This document shows, piece after piece, positions 2,743 through 33,386 of a stretch of 33,458 bases of DNA. Source of the DNA: an uncultured Clostridia bacterium (GTDB taxonomy: Bacteria > Bacillota > Clostridia > Oscillospirales > Ruminococcaceae); contig CANQWD010000030.1 of assembly GCA_947627465.1 (NCBI GenBank), forward strand, positions 1 through 33,458, given 5' to 3'. Position 1 is the first letter of the stretch, and every line of letters begins with the position of its first letter. A program made the position numbers and the translations under genes. Under the pieces are notes generated by a model. That model had not been told where the DNA came from. It did not search any database and saw nothing but the letters and a program-made list of their open reading frames with translations.

Positions 2743-3111
2743 ATGGAAAAAATTGACAAGCATACCGCAGGCAGTATTCGGGTGTCCGAGGACGTTATTA
2801 TCAAGATCGCCGAGACCGCGGCTTGCGAGATAGAGGGTACGGCTGTGATAAATAATCATCTTTTGCCGCCGTCCACGCTCTCAAAGTTCAGAGGTCCGGT
2901 GAGGGTGAAAGTAAACGGCGAGGCCGCTTCGATCAAATTCGACATTTCCGTATTGGACGGCTATAACGCCGTTAAAGTCGCCGAGGATATCCAGCGCAGC
3001 GTAAAATCCGCGGTGCAGAATATGACGGGTTTTACCGTCACCAAGGTGGACGTGAACATTGCGGGAGTAAGCTTTAAAGAGGACGGCGCTGTCAGCGCGT
3101 CCAATGGTTGA
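2743..3111 (+). CDS. Asp23/Gls24 family envelope stress protein
   Basis: A 122-residue protein of the Asp23/Gls24 (DUF322) family, placed, as in many Firmicutes, just ahead of nusB. The motif G-x-I-x-V-S-x-x-V-I-x-x-I-A near the N terminus and the VNIAGVSF ending are typical. The family is linked to alkaline-shock and cell-envelope homeostasis, usually at the membrane through AmaP. I chose the ATG at 2743 because GGGAGG lies 11 bases upstream and homologues begin close to this residue; an in-frame ATG at 2716 has no ribosome binding site. No amaP or acc genes precede it here. Confidence 0.85.
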   Translation: MEKIDKHTAGSIRVSEDVIIKIAETAACEIEGTAVINNHLLPPSTLSKFRGPVRVKVNGEAASIKFDISVLDGYNAVKVAEDIQRSVKSAVQNMTGFTVTKVDVNIAGVSFKEDGAVSASNG

Positions 3112-8427: not shown

Positions 8428-8472
8428 ACGCGTTTCTTGCCGTTACGCACCAAGCTTCGCACGCGCTCCGTG

Positions 8473-8553
8473 GGGGCGGGCAGCCCGCCGCTTTGCGGCG
8501 ACGGCGGCTTTGCCGCCGTGTTTTGCGCGAAGCGCAAAACGGCTGCCCGCCCC
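8473..8553. repeat. Cloverleaf palindromic repeat, copy 1
   Basis: A 13-bp outer stem (8473-8485 with 8541-8553) encloses three perfect hairpins placed end to end without a single unpaired base between them: 8486-8500 (6 bp, TTT loop), 8501-8519 (8 bp, TTT loop) and 8520-8540 (9 bp, GAA loop). The whole 81-base unit is a four-way junction. Related copies are at 9941-10019 (inverted) and 11517-11599. Confidence 0.9.
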
Positions 8554-8653
8554 TCGCAGGTGCGCTGCGGGTTCGGCGCGCTTTGGGCGTGTCAGCGATT
8601 GAGATAGGGCAGGTTCGGAAAAGGACGATTTTTTCGGCGGCGGGGGTGAGGAT

Positions 8654-9160
8654 ATGGCGGGATACAGCAGCGAGGAGCATGGCTTTAGATACGAGGTGCG
8701 TAACGAAGCGGAGCAGTCGATAAAAGATTTGCATATTGACCGCGCGAGTTTTCACGAATCGCCGAAAAACGAATGGGAGCGCGTTATTAAGCGGTTTTAT
8801 TATACCTTTATCGATTATGAAAACCACCCGAAAATTCATCTTGAGTATTTGTGGCTGCATTTTCGTGAGGCTCTGCGCTATACAAAACATATTCAAAACG
8901 GCGTTGATACCCCCGATTGGACAGAGTTCGTCGGGAAAATAGACGAGCTTATCCCGAAAGAAAACCGACCCGCCGAGTATTATTACATCAACGATCAAGG
9001 ATGGGTCTACGAGGGAAAATTACCCGAGATAATTGCGGTTTTGGGCGACTGTTCGGGGCGCGTTGAGGATTTTTACATACTGCCGAAGCGCGAAAGGTTC
9101 GATTGGGTAGTTTGCTATTGCGGCGACGGAGACAGTATGGGAATTTATTTGAGGGAATAA
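8654..9160 (+). CDS. Hypothetical protein, possibly DUF6756-like
   Basis: A 168-residue soluble protein with no signal peptide and no membrane span. It has an acidic, aromatic-rich middle (KRFYYTFIDYENHPKIHLEYLW) and an ending with FYILPKRERFDWVVCYCGDGDSMGIYL. That ending recalls small proteins such as DUF6756 or SMI1/immunity-like families, in which a FYI...K..DW pattern precedes the C terminus; I am not certain of this. The start ATG at 8654 has GGGGTGAGG upstream. It lies between the first cloverleaf repeat and tlyA, with only 2 bases before the tlyA start, so it is co-transcribed with tlyA. It is not part of the usual dxs-tlyA arrangement and may be an insertion. Confidence 0.65.
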   Translation: MAGYSSEEHGFRYEVRNEAEQSIKDLHIDRASFHESPKNEWERVIKRFYYTFIDYENHPKIHLEYLWLHFREALRYTKHIQNGVDTPDWTEFVGKIDELIPKENRPAEYYYINDQGWVYEGKLPEIIAVLGDCSGRVEDFYILPKRERFDWVVCYCGDGDSMGIYLRE

Positions 9161-9162
9161 CA

Positions 9163-9888
9163 ATGCGGCTTGACGTGTATCTTACCGAAAATAAGCTCTG
9201 TAAAAGCCGCTCGGCGGCGCAGAGCCTGATAAATATCGGCGGTGTTTCGGTTAACGGCAAGACCGCCGTGAAAAACTCCTCGGAAGTTTCGGACGGCGAC
9301 GATATTCAGATCATCGGCGAACGGCTGAAATACGTAGGGCGTGGCGGTTTGAAATTGGAACGCGCTTTGGAGCTTTGGGATTTTGATTTAAACGGCGCGT
9401 TTTGTGTGGACGTCGGCGCTTCCACCGGCGGATTTACCGATTGTATGCTGCAAAACGGTGCGGCAAAGGTCTACGCGGTGGATGTCGGCAGAGATCAGCT
9501 TGATGAAAAGCTGCGCTCGGACAGCCGCGTGATATCGCTCGAACAGACGGATATCCGCGATTTTTCGCTGCCCGACGGGGAATACGCGGACTTTATCGGC
9601 GCTGATGTGTCGTTTATTTCGCTAAAGCTTATTTTGCCGCGCGTTTATGGACTTTTAAAAGACGACGGCGCGGCGGTTGTGCTCATTAAACCGCAGTTTG
9701 AAGCAGGGCGGAGCAACCTTTCCAAAAAGGGGATAGTCCGCGACGATAAAGTTCGCCGAAAGATCGTCGAGGATATGAGGGAATTCGTGGTACAATGCGG
9801 ATTTTCGGTTATCGGTACGGCGAATTCCCCGATAACGGGCGGCGACGGCAACATTGAGTATTTGCTTGCTTTATGTAAGCGCGCATAG
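9163..9888 (+). CDS. tlyA: TlyA family rRNA (cytidine-2'-O)-methyltransferase
   Basis: A 241-residue protein with an N-terminal S4 RNA-binding domain (about 1-60, RLDVYLTENKLCKSRSAAQ) and an FtsJ/RrmJ-like methyltransferase domain. The SAM site DVGASTGGFTD is at 82-92, and the catalytic K-D-K-E set is represented by Lys64, Asp148, Lys176 and the Glu in GNIEYLL. TlyA proteins methylate 16S and 23S rRNA, and some members also act as hemolysins. The start is taken as ATG 9163, at the beginning of the S4 domain and with GAGGGA upstream; an in-frame start at 9103 would overlap the previous gene. Confidence 0.92.
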   Translation: MRLDVYLTENKLCKSRSAAQSLINIGGVSVNGKTAVKNSSEVSDGDDIQIIGERLKYVGRGGLKLERALELWDFDLNGAFCVDVGASTGGFTDCMLQNGAAKVYAVDVGRDQLDEKLRSDSRVISLEQTDIRDFSLPDGEYADFIGADVSFISLKLILPRVYGLLKDDGAAVVLIKPQFEAGRSNLSKKGIVRDDKVRRKIVEDMREFVVQCGFSVIGTANSPITGGDGNIEYLLALCKRA

Positions 9889-9940
9889 TTTGTTCACGTC
9901 CACCTCTTGCGCGGTTGTGCAAGCTCCCGCGCCGCCTCCC

Positions 9941-10019
9941 GGTCGGGCAGCCGTTTCGCGCTTTGCGCGAAACGCGGCGGCTTTGCCGCCGTCGCCGCAA
10001 AGCGGCGGGCTGCCCGACC
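9941..10019. repeat. Cloverleaf palindromic repeat, copy 2 (inverted)
   Basis: The outer stem is 9941-9952 with 10008-10019. The internal hairpins, in reversed order, are 9953-9973 (9 bp), 9974-9992 (8 bp including one G-T pair) and 9993-10007 (6 bp), again with no unpaired bases between stems. Compared with copy 1, an outer G-C pair is T-A here and a T-A pair of the 9-bp hairpin is C-G, so both sides changed together. Confidence 0.9.
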
Positions 10020-10114
10020 CTCGCGGCAACGTATGGGCGCGGGTGAAAAGCGTTCGGAGTTGAGAGACGTATGGGCGCGGGGCGGTCGGATAAACGTGAA
10101 ATAGGGAAGGAGCG

Positions 10115-10975
10115 ATGAAAATGTCGGAAACACGGGTGCTTATCGGGTTTAATTCCGCAAAAGACGGATCTGTGGAGTTGGCTGCGAAAATAGCCGCGCT
10201 GCTGCGTGAAAACGGATATCTGCCATGCGTTTACGGAAAGAACTCGCTCTACGCGGAAAAAATAGGCTCGGAGATAGTGGAAACGCCCGGGATATGCAGC
10301 TTTATTGTTACGGTGGGCGGCGACGGCACTATTCTGAAATGGGGCAAAATAGCCGCGGAGTTTGACCTTCCGCTGCTCGGTGTGAATATGGGGCGGCTGG
10401 GCTTTATGGCAACTCTCGAGCCGCCCGAGATAGAACGCATACCGCGTCTTCTTTCCGAAGAAATATCCGTGAGCCGCCGTATGATCTTGGATTGTAAAGT
10501 AATGCGCGGCAACGGTGTGATTTTTTCCGAAAGCGTGATAAACGACGTTATCGTATCGCGGTCGAGCTTGTCAAAGCTGCCGGAGTATGTTGTGAGCTGT
10601 GGAGACACGGAGGTGTCGCGCGTCCGCGCGGACGGCGTAATCCTAAGCACGCCGACGGGTTCAACGGCTTATTCTCTGTCGGCGGGCGGTCCCATTCTTG
10701 CGCCCGATTTGGAGTGCATAGAGTTTACCGCGCTGTGTCCGCATACGCTGTTCAATCGCCCGATGATTTTTTCGGATAAGCAGCCCGTTACCGTGACTGT
10801 TTGTCACTATCAGAACAGCAAGGCAACGTTTTCCGTGGACGGCGGCAAAGGCATCCCCTTTTTGGACGGCGATATCCTGCGGCTGACGCGTTCACGATAC
10901 GATCTAAAGATAATCGAAGCGGGCGGCGGATTCTACGGAGCGATACACAATAAGCTGATAATGCCGATCAAATAG
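10115..10975 (+). CDS. nadK: NAD kinase
   Basis: A 286-residue ATP-NAD kinase that makes NADP from NAD. It carries the GGDGT motif (68-72), NMGRLGF (91-97) and the TPTGSTAYSLSAGGP segment that binds NAD. The first ATG at 10115 is only two bases from AGGAG; an ATG two codons later (10121) has better spacing and may be the true start. Placement between tlyA and argR is common in Clostridia. No accessory domain is seen. Confidence 0.95.
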   Translation: MKMSETRVLIGFNSAKDGSVELAAKIAALLRENGYLPCVYGKNSLYAEKIGSEIVETPGICSFIVTVGGDGTILKWGKIAAEFDLPLLGVNMGRLGFMATLEPPEIERIPRLLSEEISVSRRMILDCKVMRGNGVIFSESVINDVIVSRSSLSKLPEYVVSCGDTEVSRVRADGVILSTPTGSTAYSLSAGGPILAPDLECIEFTALCPHTLFNRPMIFSDKQPVTVTVCHYQNSKATFSVDGGKGIPFLDGDILRLTRSRYDLKIIEAGGGFYGAIHNKLIMPIK

Positions 10976-10987
10976 AGGGGTGAGATT

Positions 10988-11437
10988 ATGAACAAGAAGG
11001 CTCGTCAAGCGGCGATTTTGAGAGTGATTTCCGAAAACGAGGTGGAAACGCAGAGCGACTTGCAGCAGCTTTTGAACAACGAGGGCATAGCCGTTGGGCA
11101 GTCGACGCTTTCGCGAGATATCCGCGAGCTGAGTTTAGTTAAGCGCGTAAACGAGAACGAAGTAAACTGCTACTATTCGGGTATGAAGTCCACAGCAGCG
11201 CATTACAACAGCATTTTCGCGCAGTCTGTGCTTTCTATGGACCGCGCTCAAAACATCGTGGTGCTGAAATGCCGCGCGGGGCTTGCAAACGCGGCTTGCG
11301 CTGTGGTTGACGAGCAGGATTTCCCAACGGTAATGGGTTCCATTGCGGGCGACGACACCGTGTTCATTCTCACCAAGACCGACAACCACGCGGCGCAGCT
11401 TATTTCCGACCTGAAGCGCTTGACAATAAAGGGATAG
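10988..11437 (+). CDS. argR: Arginine repressor ArgR
   Basis: A 149-residue regulator with an N-terminal winged helix (recognition segment GQSTLSRDIRELSLVK, about 37-52) and a C-terminal arginine-binding, oligomerising domain with GSIAGDDT (117-124). It represses arginine biosynthesis and can activate catabolism as an arginine-bound hexamer. GAGGGGTGAG lies upstream of the ATG. Here it sits in the conserved argR-recN position and no arginine genes are nearby, so its targets lie elsewhere. Confidence 0.94.
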   Translation: MNKKARQAAILRVISENEVETQSDLQQLLNNEGIAVGQSTLSRDIRELSLVKRVNENEVNCYYSGMKSTAAHYNSIFAQSVLSMDRAQNIVVLKCRAGLANAACAVVDEQDFPTVMGSIAGDDTVFILTKTDNHAAQLISDLKRLTIKG

Positions 11438-11516
11438 CGCTTCACGCCGCCGAACGCCCCGCGTCTGTACGCAGCCGCTTTTCGAGCCCGGCGTCCCGCG
11501 TTCGTGCGTTGCCGCG

Positions 11517-11599
11517 GGGGCGGGCAGCCCGTCGCTTCGCGGCGCACGGCGGCTGTGCCGCCGTGGTTTTGAGCAAAGCGCAAAACGGCTGCCCGCCCC
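11517..11599. repeat. Cloverleaf palindromic repeat, copy 3
   Basis: The outer 13-bp stem (11517-11529 with 11587-11599) is identical to that of copy 1. The hairpins are 11530-11544 (6 bp with one G-T pair), 11545-11565 (9 bp, TGT loop) and 11566-11586 (9 positions with one A-G mismatch). A further hairpin follows (11596-11602 with 11611-11617). It is in the same orientation as copy 1. Confidence 0.88.
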
Positions 11600-11710
11600 A
11601 ACGACGGTGCGTTGGGGCGGCGAGGGAAACAAGCCGCGGCAATGGTGTAAAGCGAACCGAGAGGAACGGCGAGACGGCGGCATGATCAAAGAGGAAAGGA
11701 GTTTTCGCGA

Positions 11711-17222: not shown

Positions 17223-19169
17223 TCACCTCATTTCCACGCTGATTATATGGTCGTTTATGCGCTCGATAACGAAAAACGTTTTGTGGCATTCCCAACCGTC
17301 GGCTTTTGTGGCGATACCGCCCGCGCCGCATTTCGCGAAGCCGCCCGAAACGCATGTTCCGTCATCGCGAAGCGGCAAAACGCCGACCATTCCAACCGCG
17401 CTCCATTCGGGGCGGTCTTTGCGCTCAACGTACTCTTGCGACGAGTCGTAGTTCGGATTTTGAACAGTCTGTTTTTCGGTATGCGAACCGACTTTCACGG
17501 AAATCAGCTTGCCGTTTTCGTCCTCGCGCTCCTCGTAATCGTCAACCCCAATATCCTTATAAATAAGCTCGTTGAACTCGTCGCGCTGCCAACGCCCGAG
17601 CCAGTCCTCGTCTCCGTTTCCGATTACGCTCGGGTTGCCCGACGTTATGCCGACAATGTAATCCTCGGGTTCTGCTTTATGCAGTTTTCCGTCTTTTATG
17701 GTTACGAAATAACCGCGCCTGTCCTCGTTTTCGGCGTTATCGTCAAACCACGGTTTAATGTATTCGGCATAGTCCGCGCCGCTTGTTGTGTACGCCTTTA
17801 AGCCGTAGGTCGTTCCCGACGTATCAACGCGGAATATATTTTTCAGTTCAACATCGCTGCCAGTGCGCTGATATTCATTATAATCAAGTTTTTTAGGGCT
17901 TTCGCTTATCTCAAGAGTGGAGCCGTGACCCCAGCCGATGGTTAAAGCCGAATCGGTTTTCGGAACGTTAAGAATTCCCAAAACCGTATCACAAGCGCGC
18001 CCCGTAAGAGTTTTACTGCCCGCGGCAAAGCTGCATTCGTGCTCGGCTTTCGTGTACCAGCCTTGCGCGTGCGAACGATTGGCGGCGGCTATGCAGTAAC
18101 CGCCCTCGGTGTGTGCGCCAATGGTGTTCGGGCGAGTCACTGTGGAGTAACCTTCCGCATGCGAGTAGTTTCCGTAAGCAAGTGTACAGCTTCCCTCCGC
18201 GTGAGAGCGTATTCCGGATGCGTCGGTGTCTTTACCCTCGGCGTGTGAATAGTCGCCATTGGCAGATGTGCCGTCGCCTTCGGCGTGCGAGGTATCTCCT
18301 GTTGCTTTTGATAAGCGTCCCTCGGCATGAGAACGATCGCCCTCAGCGGTTGTTTCTTCGCCCTCGGTGTGTGAAGCCTGTCCTTTTGCAGAAGTGCCCC
18401 CTCCCTCTGCGTGCGAAATCTCTCCTGTCGCGGTTGTGCGAAATCCCTCGGCATGAGAACGCATTCCCTCGGCGGTCGTTTCTTCGCCCTCGGCGTGAGC
18501 GCTTGTTCCGGATGCGATAGTGCCCGCTCCCTCGGCGTGTGTGGCAAAATTTGCCGCTGCTGTACCGCTTCCCTCTGCGTGCGAACGGCTTCCCGCGGCG
18601 GTCGTTTCGCAGCCTTCTGCGTGAGAGTATGCTTCAACGGCGCTCGTATGGTAGCCCTCCGCGTGGGAGTATCCCCCCTCGGCACTGCAATTTTCTCCCT
18701 CTGCGTGTGAAGCCTGTCCGGACGCAATACTGAAAATGCCCTCCGAAAACGAATACGTACCCGTTGATTCGCACCTTGTTCCCATTGACACCGCGCAATC
18801 GGCGGTCGCTTCGCCGTTGAACGAAAACGTTCCCGTTCCAACGGGGTTTTCCGCGTCCATTTTTAAGTCAAGATCTACGTCGGAGCCGCCTCCGGAGCCT
18901 GAACTTACAGCGGAGATATTTATGCTGTCATGATCTTGACCCGTAAGCTCTGTTTTGCCCTCGCCCAGTAAATACACCGTTCCGTTGGTAGTGCTGATAA
19001 GTTTCGCCGCGCCCGCGGGTATCTCTGCCACATCATCAGCGCCCTCGCTGATGTTTGGATTTTTAGAGGCGTAGATCGTCTTTTTTCCTAAATTGTGCAC
19101 GATCGTGTTAAAACCGCCCAAATCGCTGACGCTCTGTTCTTCACCTGTTAACGTTACTGTTTTTATCAT
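17223..19169 (-). CDS. Phage appendage protein with YadA-head-like repeats and Peptidase_G2 autocleavage domain
   Basis: A 648-residue protein. The N-terminal part (1-90) is a small beta domain, followed by a Gly/Ser linker (90-96). From residue 154 to about 370 there are 16 repeats of about 14 residues, each with a SHAEG-type core (variants THAEG, AHAEG, HTEG, HAQG), the pattern of left-handed trimeric beta-rolls in YadA heads. The C-terminal third holds SGADYAEYIKPW...NEDRRGYFVT and matches the Peptidase_G2 IMC domain of phage pre-neck appendages, an intramolecular chaperone that cuts itself off after trimerisation. TAAGGAGG precedes the ATG. It would be a trimeric fibre for surface binding. 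It heads the lysis genes, with no other phage structural gene present. Confidence 0.88.
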   Translation of the reverse strand: MIKTVTLTGEEQSVSDLGGFNTIVHNLGKKTIYASKNPNISEGADDVAEIPAGAAKLISTTNGTVYLLGEGKTELTGQDHDSINISAVSSGSGGGSDVDLDLKMDAENPVGTGTFSFNGEATADCAVSMGTRCESTGTYSFSEGIFSIASGQASHAEGENCSAEGGYSHAEGYHTSAVEAYSHAEGCETTAAGSRSHAEGSGTAAANFATHAEGAGTIASGTSAHAEGEETTAEGMRSHAEGFRTTATGEISHAEGGGTSAKGQASHTEGEETTAEGDRSHAEGRLSKATGDTSHAEGDGTSANGDYSHAEGKDTDASGIRSHAEGSCTLAYGNYSHAEGYSTVTRPNTIGAHTEGGYCIAAANRSHAQGWYTKAEHECSFAAGSKTLTGRACDTVLGILNVPKTDSALTIGWGHGSTLEISESPKKLDYNEYQRTGSDVELKNIFRVDTSGTTYGLKAYTTSGADYAEYIKPWFDDNAENEDRRGYFVTIKDGKLHKAEPEDYIVGITSGNPSVIGNGDEDWLGRWQRDEFNELIYKDIGVDDYEEREDENGKLISVKVGSHTEKQTVQNPNYDSSQEYVERKDRPEWSAVGMVGVLPLRDDGTCVSGGFAKCGAGGIATKADGWECHKTFFVIERINDHIISVEMR

Positions 19170-27672: not shown

Positions 27673-29187
27673 TTAAAAGAACGTGCGCGGTTGGTATTTC
27701 AATTCAATCCTGTTGTCGGGGAAAACGTAGACGCGCTTTATCAGCAAGTCCACAAGCGATTTTGTGAGAGTGTCGGCAGCGTTCAGTTCGTCGGCTATTT
27801 TCTTTTGTAATTGTTGTTTCTCTTGCTTGTCACGGTCGGATTTTGCTTGCGCTGCAATTACCGCGCTAACGTTCTGCTCATAGACGAGTTTAACATCAAG
27901 TTCCGCCTTCCTCGCCTTGTAGGTTTCCGCGTCAAGCTCGCCAAGGACAAACTGCTCATAAAGTTTGCGCTTACTGTCCTGTAAAAAGCGCAGCTTCTTT
28001 TCGTGTTCCTCTTGCAATGGCGAATTTACATTCGCATTGTTTTGAAGATCATCAATCCCGAAAACGCATTTTGCTTGCGCGTTTATTGTATCGAACACGA
28101 TCTGTTCCAACTCTTTGATAGGTATCGACAAGCCGTAGCAAGCCATATCGGGAAGTTTTGACGAACGCCTGCATTTGTAATGCCGTCCGTTGGATACGTT
28201 CATTGCGTGGTCGCAACAACCGCAGAACACTTTCCCGCGCAGAAGATAATCGCGAGTTTGTTTGTTTGGCAGCTTGAATTTGCGGATATTGCTTTTCGCG
28301 CGTTCAAACAATTCTTTGCTGATGATCGGCGTGTGGTGGTCGGGAATTTTTATCCATTCGCTCTCATCCTTTTGGCGAATGTGCCTACTTCCGATTTCAA
28401 CAACGCGCCGTTTTCCCATAATATACATTCCCGTATATCGCTCGTCGGCTAAAATCCTTAAAACGGTTGATGATGACCAAACGCCGTTGGTTCTGGAAAT
28501 ATCGTGATAATTTTTCCCCTTACTTGCCTTATGTTCACCCGGAGTGGGGATTTTTAGCGCGTATAATTTACGCGTTATCTCTCCCGCTGAAATACCATCA
28601 GCTGCCCATTCAAATATCTGCCGCACGTTATCGGCGGTTTCCTCATCGGGAACCATTCGTCCGTCCGCACCCTTTTGATAGCCATACGGACAAATTTTGC
28701 TCTGATATTCGCCGCGTTTCATTCGCGCGAGTTTTGCGGTCTTACTCTTTATCGACATATCACGGCTGTAACACTCGTTTATGAGATATTTGAAAGCTAT
28801 TTCAATGCCGCCCGTATCTCCCTTGTGTTCATTCGTGTCAAAATTATCGCTCACGGAAATGAACCTAACGTGATACAACGGGAAAACCTTTTCTATGAAA
28901 TAACCCGTTTCAATTGAGTTTCTTCCGAAACGCGATAAATCCTTTACGAGAATGGTGTTGACTTCTCCGTTGCGAACCTTTTCCAACAGACGCTGAACGG
29001 CGGGACGCTCAAAGTTAGTTCCCGTGTGTCCGTTATCCACAAACTCCTCTATCTTGCAGTCCCCGTATTCGGGAAGTGACATAGCCTTTTCACGGAGAAG
29101 ATTTTGCTGATTTTCTACGCTCAGGCTGTCGTATTTTTCGTCCTCAATGGAGAGCCTGATGTAAAGCGCGATAATACTTTTTGACAT
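27673..29187 (-). CDS. Large serine recombinase 3 of a three-gene operon
   Basis: A 504-residue large serine recombinase. The resolvase domain has the nucleophile Ser13 in YIRLSIEDE and the arginines of VKDLSRFGRNS. A recombinase domain (GYQKGADGRMVPDEETADNVRQIF...YTGMYIMGKR) follows, then a zinc ribbon with CGCC...C...C and a coiled coil rich in Lys and Glu. The ending RTFF is normal, so it looks complete. I chose ATG 29187, which shares one base with the stop of the preceding recombinase (TGATG), with GGGGGGA upstream; this is strong coupling. It may excise or integrate the element jointly with its two partners. Confidence 0.9.
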   Translation of the reverse strand: MSKSIIALYIRLSIEDEKYDSLSVENQQNLLREKAMSLPEYGDCKIEEFVDNGHTGTNFERPAVQRLLEKVRNGEVNTILVKDLSRFGRNSIETGYFIEKVFPLYHVRFISVSDNFDTNEHKGDTGGIEIAFKYLINECYSRDMSIKSKTAKLARMKRGEYQSKICPYGYQKGADGRMVPDEETADNVRQIFEWAADGISAGEITRKLYALKIPTPGEHKASKGKNYHDISRTNGVWSSSTVLRILADERYTGMYIMGKRRVVEIGSRHIRQKDESEWIKIPDHHTPIISKELFERAKSNIRKFKLPNKQTRDYLLRGKVFCGCCDHAMNVSNGRHYKCRRSSKLPDMACYGLSIPIKELEQIVFDTINAQAKCVFGIDDLQNNANVNSPLQEEHEKKLRFLQDSKRKLYEQFVLGELDAETYKARKAELDVKLVYEQNVSAVIAAQAKSDRDKQEKQQLQKKIADELNAADTLTKSLVDLLIKRVYVFPDNRIELKYQPRTFF

Positions 29188-30791
29188 CAAAATCCCCCCT
29201 TTTCTTCCGAACGGAAAATGACATTGATATTGTGGTCGTGACTTATTTCTATACGCTCTATCAAGCGATCTATCAGATCGGCGGTAAGCCGTTCTTCGCG
29301 CTTGAAATCGTCCGCGCAGCTTTGGACTTCGTTACGCCGTTTGCTCTCACGCCCAAGACGTTCTATATCGCCGCTTATACGCTCTATATCCTGTTTAAGT
29401 TCGTCGGCTTGCTTTGCGTAGGCACTTTTGAATTCTTCATAATCGCCGCTTGTAATAACGCCGTTTACAAGACTTTCATAAAGTCCTTTAACAAGACCTT
29501 GAACGCGTTCCAATTCGCGCTGTTTTAAGGTCTTTTCTTTTTTCAGCCCGGTAATCGTGCTGTCCGTTTTGACCATTTGCGCGAAAGAGCAGCCGAGCGC
29601 GGAAAGTTTTTCTTTTATCGCCGCCGATACGAAATCAATCACAATGCTCTCGTCAATGTTTACTCCGATACAAGCGTCTTTGGAAATCCTATTCGGAGAT
29701 AAACAATGTAGACGGTAAACGTCGGCTTTGGTTTTGCGCTTTGCTCTTTGGCGGTGCAGAGGCTTTCCGCAATGCGGACAGAATATCTTTCCTTTGAAAA
29801 TGTTTTCGGTGTAGTGGTCAATAGGCTTGCTCTTACATTTCTCGCGAACGGCGGCGCGAATTTCCCGCACTCTTTCAAATATATCAAGGCTAACAATCGG
29901 TTCGTGAGTATTTTGAACAATAATATAGTTTTCGGGAGAAACATCTTGTTGTTTATGCTCTACGATTTGGCTCTTGCCTTGCACCATATCTCCCGTGTAA
30001 ACAGGATTATCCAAGATACGAGAAACCGTAAACGTAGTCCAATTCCGATTTAGGGTATAATGTTTGTCGCGTTCGCTCGTTTTGCTTTTGTAAACGCTTG
30101 ACGTATCAATACCCATTTCATTCAGCCGTACCGTGATAGTATTCAGACCGCAGCCCTCTACAAACCACTCGAATATCTGCCGCACTATAGGCGCTGTTTC
30201 CTCGTCGATTATCAGCTTATGACAATCGTCGGGGGATTTTTTATACCCAAACGGCGCTCTGGCACCGATATAATCTCCGGCGAGCATTGCTTGATGTGCT
30301 GACGCTTTGATTTTTCTTCCTATGTCAAGCGCGTAAGCCTCGTTGACCATATTTTTCAGCGGAAGCAGTATCCCGTTTTGAGGATTATTTTCATCGGCGG
30401 TATCGAACATATCATTTACGGCAATAAAGCGGACTTTGTGCTGGGCAAAATATTGCTCGATATAATAACCCGTATCAATTGAATTTCGTCCGAGACGCGA
30501 TAAGTCCTTGACGATCACGCAATTTATTTTACCGCTTTCAATGTCAGACAACATTCTTTTGAAACCGGGACGGTCGAAATTCGTACCCGTCAGACCGTTA
30601 TCTATATATGTATCACAAATGTGATATTCGGGTTTATCAGCCACATAATCGTTGAGAATAAGCTGCTGATTTTCAATTGAATTGCTTCGCCCCTTGCCGT
30701 CCTCGACCGAAAGTCTGATGTAGAGCGCGGTATTTAATGCCGCCGCCCGAACAGGCTCTGTAATGAGATTTTTTCTGCTTTTTCGTGCCAT
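29187..30791 (-). CDS. Large serine recombinase 2 of a three-gene operon
   Basis: A 534-residue large serine recombinase with an extra basic N-terminal stretch of about 20 residues. Ser28 lies in YIRLSVEDG; the VKDLSRLGRNS arginine motif, the central recombinase domain (GYKKSPDDCHKLIIDEETAPIVRQIF) and the zinc ribbon CPHCGKP...CLSPNRISKDAC are intact. A coiled coil and a basic C terminus follow. GGAGGG lies 8 bases before the ATG, inside the 3' end of recombinase 1, and the start overlaps that gene's stop by one base (TAATG). Confidence 0.9.
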   Translation of the reverse strand: MARKSRKNLITEPVRAAALNTALYIRLSVEDGKGRSNSIENQQLILNDYVADKPEYHICDTYIDNGLTGTNFDRPGFKRMLSDIESGKINCVIVKDLSRLGRNSIDTGYYIEQYFAQHKVRFIAVNDMFDTADENNPQNGILLPLKNMVNEAYALDIGRKIKASAHQAMLAGDYIGARAPFGYKKSPDDCHKLIIDEETAPIVRQIFEWFVEGCGLNTITVRLNEMGIDTSSVYKSKTSERDKHYTLNRNWTTFTVSRILDNPVYTGDMVQGKSQIVEHKQQDVSPENYIIVQNTHEPIVSLDIFERVREIRAAVREKCKSKPIDHYTENIFKGKIFCPHCGKPLHRQRAKRKTKADVYRLHCLSPNRISKDACIGVNIDESIVIDFVSAAIKEKLSALGCSFAQMVKTDSTITGLKKEKTLKQRELERVQGLVKGLYESLVNGVITSGDYEEFKSAYAKQADELKQDIERISGDIERLGRESKRRNEVQSCADDFKREERLTADLIDRLIERIEISHDHNINVIFRSEEKGGF

Positions 30792-32410
30792 TATCCCGCC
30801 CTCCTTTCATCGGACACTTGATTGATAAATTCCATTGCTTTTTGGTATTCGTCCTGATAATTAAAGCGTATCTCAATGCTTTTGTCGGCATTTATGATAA
30901 TACTCTGTATCAAACGCGCTACCGCACTTCTGTCTATATTCTCCATTTCGGAGAATTGTGTAAAGTGGTTTATCCAACGGGTTCTATCCCCGCGGTTCTC
31001 CACCACCTCCGCTAATTTGTCGTTCCAACTCTGAATAGCGGTCTTGATGTCTTCGGCTTTCGCGGAGTATTCTTGCTTGTACTGCAAAAATTCCTCTTTG
31101 GATATAACACCGTTTACAAGGTTCTCATATAAGTTACGCTTAAAGTTTTCGACTTTTGCAAGCTGTTCCTCGTTGGACTTTATGTAGCCCGTGTACTCGC
31201 TCACAAGTTCGCGGTTTATGCGCTCTCTACTAATACTGTTGATAATGCCATCAAGCGAAATCACGCTGTTGATGTGGGCTTTAAGGCTTGTTTGAACGCA
31301 GTCCGTCAGATCGCTTTCCTTTATCATTGATGAGGACATACAACCGCCCTTTTTACCCGCGGGACAGAAATAATAAACATATTCCTTACCCTTATAACGG
31401 TTTATTTTTCGCGTCATTCTCCCGCCGCAGCAGCCGCATATCAGAACGCCCGAAAAGAGGTACACCGTATCGGACTGCGGCGAGGTGCGAGTATCAAGCC
31501 GTTTCAGCTTTTGCACCAAATCAAAATCCGCTTTGTCAATAATAGCTTCGTGAGTTCCCTCAACGCGAACCCATTCGGAGGACGGTTTTGTTTCGCGCTC
31601 CTTTAGTTTAAAATGCGGCGTGGTCTGTTTGCCTTGTACCATTGTTCCCGTGTAGATCTCATCGCTTAAAATCCGAATGACCGTTGTCGCAGACCATTTG
31701 CAATTTTCTTTGTCGGCGTAGCCGTTTTTCGCGTAAGGAAATCCGTTTGAACGCTTATAGGCAAGCGGCGAAAGAATGCCCGCTTTGTTCAGTTCCTCGG
31801 CTATATGAGCGGCGCTATAACCGTCAAGCCGCTTTCGGAAAATGTCGCGCACAACATTTGCCGCGAATGTATCAACGATCAGGCTCTTGTGCTTATCGCC
31901 CGTCTTAAGATAACCGTAAACCGTAAACGCACCGACAAAATCTCCCGTTCGGCGTTTGATGTCAAGTGCCGTCCGCGTTTTCACGGAAATGTCGCGGGAA
32001 TACGCTTCGTTCATTATATTTTTAACGGAAACGGATATTTCGTCGGCTTTTTCGGTCAAGGTATCCAGATTATCGTTAATAGCGATAAACCTAACGCCGT
32101 ATGCGGGAAAAATCCTCCGAAGATAACGCCCCGTTTCGATATACTCACGACCGAGCCGCGACAAGTCCTTAACGATAACGCAATTAGCCTCGCCCCTTTT
32201 GATAAGTTCCATCATTTCCATAAAGGCAGGACGGTCAAAAAGCACTCCGCTGTAACCATCATCTACTTTTTCGGCAGCTACCTCAATTTCGGGGTGCTGC
32301 ACGATGAAGTCATCAATCAGCTTTCTCTGGTTGGAAACGCTGTTGCTTTCAACAGACTTGTCGTCCGTGTAGGACAGTCTGATGTACTTGATAGCCTTGA
32401 ATTTTTGCAT
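30791..32410 (-). CDS. Large serine recombinase 1 of a three-gene operon
   Basis: A 539-residue large serine recombinase: Ser13 in YIRLSYTDD, VKDLSRLGRE arginines, a DDGYSGVLFDRPAF segment, the recombinase domain, and a zinc ribbon CGCCGG...CPAGKKGGC. I chose ATG 32410, with AAGGAG 10 bases upstream; a GTG three codons earlier lies too close to the ribosome binding site. The ribosome binding site is part of an 11-bp stem in the leader, so translation is probably gated. A consensus promoter lies 90 bases upstream. All three paralogues keep their catalytic serine and zinc ribbon, which argues that each is used. Confidence 0.9.
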   Translation of the reverse strand: MQKFKAIKYIRLSYTDDKSVESNSVSNQRKLIDDFIVQHPEIEVAAEKVDDGYSGVLFDRPAFMEMMELIKRGEANCVIVKDLSRLGREYIETGRYLRRIFPAYGVRFIAINDNLDTLTEKADEISVSVKNIMNEAYSRDISVKTRTALDIKRRTGDFVGAFTVYGYLKTGDKHKSLIVDTFAANVVRDIFRKRLDGYSAAHIAEELNKAGILSPLAYKRSNGFPYAKNGYADKENCKWSATTVIRILSDEIYTGTMVQGKQTTPHFKLKERETKPSSEWVRVEGTHEAIIDKADFDLVQKLKRLDTRTSPQSDTVYLFSGVLICGCCGGRMTRKINRYKGKEYVYYFCPAGKKGGCMSSSMIKESDLTDCVQTSLKAHINSVISLDGIINSISRERINRELVSEYTGYIKSNEEQLAKVENFKRNLYENLVNGVISKEEFLQYKQEYSAKAEDIKTAIQSWNDKLAEVVENRGDRTRWINHFTQFSEMENIDRSAVARLIQSIIINADKSIEIRFNYQDEYQKAMEFINQVSDERRAG

Positions 32411-32416
32411 AAAAAA

Positions 32417-32463
32417 CACACTCCTTTTTTATACGGAAAACTGCCCGCAATCAAAGGAGTGTG
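32417..32463 (-). promoter_or_regulatory. Ribosome-binding-site-sequestering stem in the serine recombinase leader
   Basis: Plus-strand CACACTCCTTT (32417-32427) is the exact reverse complement of AAAGGAGTGTG (32453-32463). In the minus-strand mRNA the AAAGGAG of recombinase 1 is thus locked in an 11-bp perfect stem with a 25-base loop. Confidence 0.75.
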
Positions 32464-33003: not shown

Positions 33004-33386
33004 AATTATTATTTATAGCTGCAAATCAAAGCAAACAGCGAGTATGAACGCAACTCGCACATAGGGCTTTCACCTCTGCCCATTCCTATGGATCAGACCT
33101 CACGGTAAGTATCATTATATCGCAAGCTGCGGGGCGCTCTCGTTTCTTTACTACTCGGCGACTGCGTTATCGTCTTTCGGCTAACCAACTCGTAAATTCT
33201 CGGTTATTGTTATTCTCGCGCAAAAATAATGTGTGGTCACGGATAATGAATAACCTAAAAAATAGGCGGCAGAAACAAATCATCGCGCTTTCCGTCAAAG
33301 ACAGCGCGGCTTGCGACTTTTGTGTTTGCTTTGCTATTTAATTTTCAAAGAACTGTTACGAACCGCCCAAAGGCTTGTCCCTAACT
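33004..33386 (-). ncRNA. Candidate structured non-coding region, no gene seen
   Basis: Nearly 400 bases without a credible gene but rich in hairpins: 33038-33043 with 33053-33058, 33060-33065 with 33085-33090, 33202-33208 with 33249-33255, and 33284-33289 with 33303-33308. It ends, on the minus strand, at the terminator-like stem at 32945-33003. It could be a regulatory leader, a stable RNA or a transfer/attachment site. Only structure supports this. Confidence 0.35.

Follow-up and report, generated by a model that had tools for sequence, protein, structure and literature searches.

Repetitive extragenic palindromes (REPs) are palindromes of 20-40 bp, most of them tagged GTAG or CGTC at one end, that are tied to tyrosine (HUH) transposases (PMC3733652, excerpt). 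Miniature inverted-repeat transposable elements (MITEs) of bacteria are long stem-loops, many of which have 5'-TA termini and target duplications (PMC2229807, excerpt; the word cloverleaf is absent from that paper). In mitochondria, the repetitive hairpin-forming elements of sponges and the double-hairpin elements of fungi keep their stems while their loops change, and are patchily spread (PMC2800124, excerpt). Furthermore, GNA and GNNA loops on G-C stems form extraordinarily stable, nuclease-resistant DNA mini-hairpins (PMC4686876; PMC8373063, citing Nakano 2002; excerpts). Here we describe a cloverleaf-shaped repeat of ~80 bp, present in three copies in one operon on a stretch of 33,458 nucleotides (hereafter the window; contig CANQWD010000030.1 of assembly GCA_947627465.1) from an uncultured Clostridia bacterium of the Ruminococcaceae. 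It belongs to a family restricted to one genus of uncultured gut bacteria, its shape is conserved in place, though not absolutely, and its base pairs and loops suggest that selection acts on folded DNA rather than on RNA.

The cloverleaf repeat resembles REP/BIME sequences and REPINs with their RAYT proteins, which are palindromic intergenic repeats with many copies in both directions. It differs from them in its length, in the three hairpins held within a closing stem, and in that a Y1 gene is found only as a fragment in one of the 12 repeat-bearing genomes; its parsed outer stems begin with GGGG, GCGG, GGAC and similar, and the REP end tags were not found. The bacterial MITEs (ERIC, NEMIS/Correia, RUP, CIR, YPAL), ~100-200 bp long, non-autonomous, intergenic and strongly foldable, are also alike, and as with MITEs the window copies occupy places where relatives lack an insert, at all three gaps described below; however, they are long stem-loops, many with target duplications according to the excerpt, and none was discerned by eye at the cloverleaf copies. 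The mitochondrial elements share double or triple intergenic hairpins whose stems are kept while loops vary, but they belong to organelle genomes, and their excerpted description (PMC2800124) mentions neither a closing stem nor GNA/GNNA loops. The DNA mini-hairpins follow the same GNA/GNNA loop rule with a C-G closing pair (PMC4686876, PMC8373063, excerpts), but they come from oligonucleotide and aptamer chemistry and represent a loop property, not a genomic repeat family. The original prediction, made from the window sequence, knew of no named repeat with this shape; we likewise found no name and no bacterial repeat of such shape among the matches listed in open PMC papers, as seen from title and start of abstract. 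We therefore judge the cloverleaf repeat to be a structured, non-autonomous intergenic repeat of a form for which no name was found, with REPs, bacterial MITEs and the triple-hairpin elements of sponge mitochondria as the nearest kinds.

As the original prediction had it, the copies lie in three separate gaps of one operon and in either direction (Table 1), copies 1 and 3 along the operon and copy 2 opposite to it. Copy 1 has an outer stem of 13 bp and hairpins of 6, 8 and 9 bp, which meet in a junction without an unpaired base. In copy 2 the outer stem has 12 bp and the hairpins 6, 7 and 9 bp under strict pairing, the base of the middle hairpin being G-T (A-C on the opposite strand), and copy 3 has an outer stem of 13 bp and hairpins of 6, 9 and 9 bp, the first of which includes one T-G and the third one A-G mismatch. 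The predicted coordinates and general shape (a stem of 12-13 bp closing three hairpins, in both orientations) hold for all three copies, whereas the statement that no bases are unpaired between the stems is true of copy 1, and of copy 2 only if G-T is counted as a pair. The predicted paired changes, from G-C to T-A in the outer stem and from T-A to C-G in a hairpin, are indeed present between the copies, and the predicted relationship of the flanks of copies 2 and 3 is found as well, these being alignable on one side. Copy 2 is 89% and copy 3 91% identical to copy 1, whereas other near-full-length BLAST matches reach at most 82%; judging from these identities, the three window copies may descend from one another.

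Table 1. Cloverleaf copies and the intergenic gaps that contain them (positions in the window).
Feature	Positions	Strand	Details
Cloverleaf copy 1	8473-8553	+	outer stem 8473-8485/8541-8553; hairpins 8486-8500, 8501-8519, 8520-8540 (T-rich arm last)
Cloverleaf copy 2, inverted	9941-10019	-	outer stem 9941-9952/10008-10019; T-rich hairpin 9953-9973, middle 9975-9991, short 9993-10007
Cloverleaf copy 3	11517-11599	+	outer stem 11517-11529/11587-11599; hairpins 11530-11544, 11545-11565, 11566-11586; one A-G mismatch, one T-G
Gap 1, dxs to DUF6756 gene	8428-8653		226 bp, contains copy 1
Gap 2, TlyA-like FtsJ/S4 gene to nadK	9889-10114		226 bp, contains copy 2
Gap 3, argR to recN	11438-11710		273 bp, contains copy 3

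Folding as single-stranded DNA yields four helices around one junction for both strands of all three copies, with z-scores of -5.7 to -9.1; in all six folds, none of 200 shuffles was as stable. As RNA, the window copies with short flanks fold at -69 to -76 kcal/mol. A geometric finder requiring an outer stem of at least 7 bp, three hairpins of at least 5 bp and gaps of at most 1 nt detected two of the window copies, 1 and 2 (copy 3 was missed owing to its A-G mismatch), and nothing in 10 dinucleotide shuffles. It found no structures in a 400-kb sample of the genome of the window (G000; 2.52 Mb, 97% complete, the window being its contig C30) or in one shuffle of that sample. In 257 kb around the covariance-model matches it returned 21 three-arm, no two-arm and no four-arm structures, and in a further 196 kb ten three-arm structures and one two-arm structure; hence, three arms are a property of the cloverleaf family.

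BLAST with copy 1 retrieves additional copies in G000, and the covariance-model search proposed in the original prediction finds more: a model built from four copies (R1) gives 28 matches, representing 18 distinct places, to which other searches add three, bringing the total to 21 places. A second model, built from 23 copies, matches 12 of the 43 genomes of the genus at E 1e-3, and gives no match at 1e-4 in 244 other genomes sampled from the order (19 candidates scored per genome under strict filters, so that weak copies may escape). The cloverleaf repeat is thus a genus-restricted family of uncultured gut bacteria. A weak match in genome G030 gives no cloverleaf fold. The subfamilies have little common sequence; what they have in common is the plan of a closing stem and three hairpins (the first of 5-9 bp, the middle mostly of 6-11 bp and the last mostly of 7-11 bp). 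Of the 35 places listed, 28 could be parsed and seven, window copy 3 among them, could not; one of the 35 coordinates (L085:7084) was wrong, the second copy at locus L085 being L085:6486-6572. A T-run is present on the 5' side of an end arm in 24 of the 28 parsed copies. According to crude open reading frame (ORF) calls, the copies lie mostly between long ORFs; a few (e.g., L090 and L091) overlap longer putative ORFs. Several cloverleafs are found within ~135 bp of contig ends (G000 C31:31500, G024 C136:11291, G024 C2:14838), where the assembly may break.

One genome, G054, possesses a young subfamily of dozens of copies, with at least 53 matches (40 scored of 222 candidates). Its stems are near-constant and its loops variable, and ~110-235 bp ahead of the cloverleaf are also common to the copies; a search for RNA structure in this body gave weak, short helices only. 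The G054 copies (L136, L155-L184) appear to be put together from alternative blocks in mosaic fashion, and they are located amid other short TAGCTAG-rich repeats.

The covariation that the original prediction wanted checked is strong. In 23 aligned rows (the 28 parsed copies minus four whose end arms lack a T-run and one duplicate; MAFFT displaced two rows, L085 and L096, which were both retained), 207 cells are changed on both sides of the pair and seven on one side, and 95.7% of the cells are paired, compared to 37-45% when the alignment is slid. Some copies outside the window occupy the same site in two or three species. In seven comparisons of such shared sites, 526 of 572 stem positions are identical (92%) versus 1293 of 1944 (~66%) in the flanks, which comprise up to 150 bp per side and whose identities are rough; three of the ten comparisons made (G016/G019, G045/G019 and the first copy of G024/G056) were omitted from these sums as repeats of a site. 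In a pair shared by G000 and G056 (C31), all three loops differ, yet each is T-first and C-last in both genomes.

The original prediction left open whether the structure acts as DNA or as RNA; the scarcity of G-U pairs, the type of the loops and their sense now favour DNA. The 72 model matches correspond to 57 places, and pairs and loops were counted in the 56 of these that are distinct, G054 being excluded from the count of pair types. The 56 distinct matches contain 1782 Watson-Crick pairs, 18 G-U pairs and 58 mismatches. A structure read as RNA should bear G-U better than a mismatch, and G-U being the rarer of the two here favours DNA. In only four control tRNAs from the fetched loci, 93 pairs are Watson-Crick, 6 of 99 are G-U and none is mismatched (Fisher p 0.001).

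The loops point in the same direction. Triloops of the GNA/TNC type make up 64 of 94 in the repeat versus 8 of 65 in other hairpins of the genome (p 9e-13), and tetraloops of the GNNA/TNNC type 40 of 56 versus 11 of 47 (p 1e-6); note that the control hairpins had stems of at least 7 bp and the repeat elements stems of at least 5 bp. In all, 104 of 150 tri- and tetraloops in the 56 elements are GNA/GNNA or the complement, and the closing base is C in 98 of these 104. GNRA is the tetraloop rule of RNA. Outside G054, the third tetraloop base is a pyrimidine (GNYA) rather than a purine (GNRA) by 28 to 12 (6 to 5 in control hairpins), and in arm 1 of G054 GNYA-type exceeds GNRA-type by 24 to 4. Furthermore, the loops of G054 have one sense: among its 35 copies with intact stems, T..C loops are present in 35 of 35 in arm 1 and in 35 of 35 in arm 2 (10 and 6 different loops, respectively), and the 5' hairpin loops comprise 18 T..C and no G..A among 20 parsed (25 examined). 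Outside G054 both senses occur, and the sense agrees between arms in 53 of 72 pairs. Scarce G-U, DNA-type loops and one-sense loops together suggest that selection acts on the folded DNA rather than on RNA.

A second hairpin adjoins the cloverleaf within 0-1 nt in 20 of the 57 places (one of the 20 being a truncated match), in genomes G000, G011, G014, G016, G021, G051 and G056, and by eye also in G054. It is built of a 6-9-bp stem, a G-A/G-A internal mismatch and a further stem, often with a T-G near the start. Its outer stem varies in pairs (GGCTTTTCC, AGCGTTTTC, CGCGTTTTT), whereas the G-A step is constant; this constancy is partly by construction, as the script required the step, which had already been noticed before that search.

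The host operon has Pfam matches to DXP synthase, DUF6756, FtsJ/S4, NAD kinase, arginine repressor and a RecF/RecN/SMC protein; we take the FtsJ/S4 gene to be tlyA and the RecF/RecN/SMC gene to be recN, names that are ours and not those of the Pfam matches. Relatives identified by NadK are uncultured Clostridia/Oscillospiraceae assembled from metagenomes, and sequences of the NadK locus were obtained for 30 of 40 matching genomes. In 16 of 18 loci (the 16 that hold dxs), the next gene starts -7 to 11 bp after dxs, and gap 2 measures -44 to 26 bp in all 29 fetched loci. Gap 3 is at most 40 bp in 16 of 25 measurable relatives; it is 313 bp in G024, where it contains its own cloverleaf, and 101-713 bp in eight other relatives, where a cloverleaf is absent. 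As most of the relatives examined have little or no gap at these positions, the window copies are insertions, and the empty sites that the original prediction suggested looking for are seen at gaps 1 and 2 and, in most measurable relatives, at gap 3. Each insert is ~215-240 bp long, the cloverleaf making up about one third of it; the flanking part is alignable between copies 2 and 3 and by eye resembles the body of the G054 repeat. The argR-recN gap of G018 (L053, ~2832-3036) contains a different inverted-repeat element, which starts with GGCAACACC and ends with its complement, and a start similar to that of this element adjoins one of the G000 cloverleafs (left of L076:6970). In G048 (L051), the same gap holds an apparent partial copy of the start of recN.

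A Y1/RAYT partner, as suggested by the original prediction, finds no support: Y1_Tnp is present in nine of the 43 genomes of the genus, and among the 12 with the repeat only in one, as a fragment in G051, the Y1 family (PF01797) being not found in G000 as assembled and likewise in 11 of the 12 repeat-bearing genomes. IS91 (Y2) was rejected as mobiliser as well (four of 43 genomes, two of them with the repeat; above the cut-off two of 43, one with the repeat), and so was IS110 (seven of 43 genomes, three of them with the repeat), the distribution of neither family following that of the repeat. Between two near-identical G016 copies 7 kb apart no autonomous element was obvious by eye, this interval having had no Pfam search. 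Blastn of copy 1 with its flanks against plasmid and phage collections gave no match at E 1e-3, one viral contig matched a pattern of the T-rich hairpin, and Rfam at gathering scores gave no match within the repeats of the window. As regards the terminal inverted repeats of MITEs, the outer stem is itself an inverted repeat, but in G054 the conserved sequence extends past it on one side. The idea that the T-rich arm holds RuvC-like cut sites was dropped, since any T-run followed by G or C fits.

Elsewhere in the window, the minus strand at 27676-32419 encodes three large serine recombinases side by side (Resolvase, Recombinase, zinc ribbon), an arrangement that occurs in some integrative elements. 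A protein of 648 amino acids (17226-19169, minus strand) combines many SHAEG-type repeats with a Peptidase_G2 self-cleaving domain, as in phage tail fibres, and a pemK RNA (RF02913) match of 42.1 bits lies at 33059-33118 on the minus strand, close to the contig end.

The original prediction had proposed a non-autonomous element or a selected structure, and the further copies, the empty sites and the strong covariation support this. We give an even chance to the reading that the copies are a genus-restricted non-autonomous intergenic DNA repeat of conserved shape, which folds as single-stranded DNA, is recognized in its folded form and spread by a protein, and is kept in shape by selection. What is conserved would be the shape: three hairpins and the stem that closes them form a four-way junction, which is capped by DNA mini-hairpin loops and often placed beside the hairpin with the G-A mismatches. 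One strand would fold in the cell while single-stranded, during replication, repair, transcription or transfer; a trans-acting, structure-reading protein would recognize the folded form and spread copies into intergenic gaps, and after insertion selection would keep the shape in place. A sharper version is possible but more tentative: the heritable signal would be the folded single-stranded shape, not the sequence or an RNA, in the form of a nuclease-resistant, Holliday-junction-like structure with mini-hairpin caps and the G-A-mismatch hairpin, copied between genes by a structure-specific protein. Several observations weigh against the preferred reading. No mobilising gene was found among the Y1, IS91 and IS110 families (other transposase families were not searched), and neither a target duplication nor a clean 5' end was seen by eye at the G054 copies, at two G016 copies or at 19 copies with the G-A hairpin. 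The 207-to-7 covariation count comes from rows picked by a finder that requires Watson-Crick pairs, and these were padded and trimmed to one template. Shared sites show 11 compensated pairs versus 14 one-sided changes to or from a mismatch and four to G-U (three further pair changes are of other kinds), the stems of the omitted first-copy comparison of G024/G056 are identical at only 46 of 64 positions, and one G056 copy (C90, L139:2868-2926) lacks one of the three arms, its closing stem and other arms being intact. As for the loops, those of the window copies are mostly TTT/AAA, only two of nine being GNA/TNC; arm 3 loops of G054 are T..C in only 16 of 35 (G..A in one), and arm 2 tetraloops of G054 fit GNRA by 18 to 17, so that the loop there cannot tell DNA from RNA.

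The shape could also be kept without selection, if a quasi-palindrome was inherited or moved once and template switching during replication copied arm into arm, producing paired changes. In short inverted repeats, template switching homogenizes the arms and can leave the loops inverted (PMC8604942, excerpt), and it may well contribute here, as some compensated changes are clustered (e.g., in the middle hairpin of G016 versus G019/G045) and loops of both senses occur outside G054. However, such neutral upkeep would let stems drift, whereas stems at shared sites are far more identical than their flanks; no loop inversion is seen in arms 1 and 2 of G054 (70 of 70 of one sense), and even copies of very different sequence retain the closed junction, the three arms and, in 24 of the 28 parsed, a T-run in an end arm. 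We consider it rather unlikely as the whole explanation. An RNA element, folding once transcribed and thereby governing the stability, processing or attenuation of operon messengers, would fit the location in operon gaps and the very stable RNA fold, and such roles have been proposed for REPs (PMC3733652, excerpt), but G-U being rarer than mismatches, the preference for GNYA over GNRA outside G054 and in its arm 1 (though not in arm 2), the copies in both directions within one operon and the lack of an Rfam match at gathering scores make this improbable.

A DNA site serving the host, which would extrude under negative supercoiling and act as a REP/BIME-like supercoil sink or as a site for a host protein, its spread being incidental, would be consistent with the conservation in place between species, with the location mostly between long ORFs (on the crude calls) and with the foldability of both strands; the patchy presence (12 of 43 genomes) and the empty orthologous gaps speak against an essential host role, and we think this explanation quite unlikely. 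That the repeat is a REP/REPIN moved by a Y1 (RAYT) transposase is very improbable: it is palindromic, intergenic and present in many copies, but the single Y1_Tnp among the repeat-bearing genomes is a fragment, and length and shape are unlike those of REPs.

Covariation is usually taken as evidence for RNA. In this family, G-U pairs are scarce and the loops are of the DNA type, which suggests that folded chromosomal DNA can be under selection; the two features represent simple tests that can be applied to other repeat families. If a protein reads the junction, small repeats would have a new route of spread, and enzymes that act on four-way junctions could be studied on the repeat as a natural substrate.

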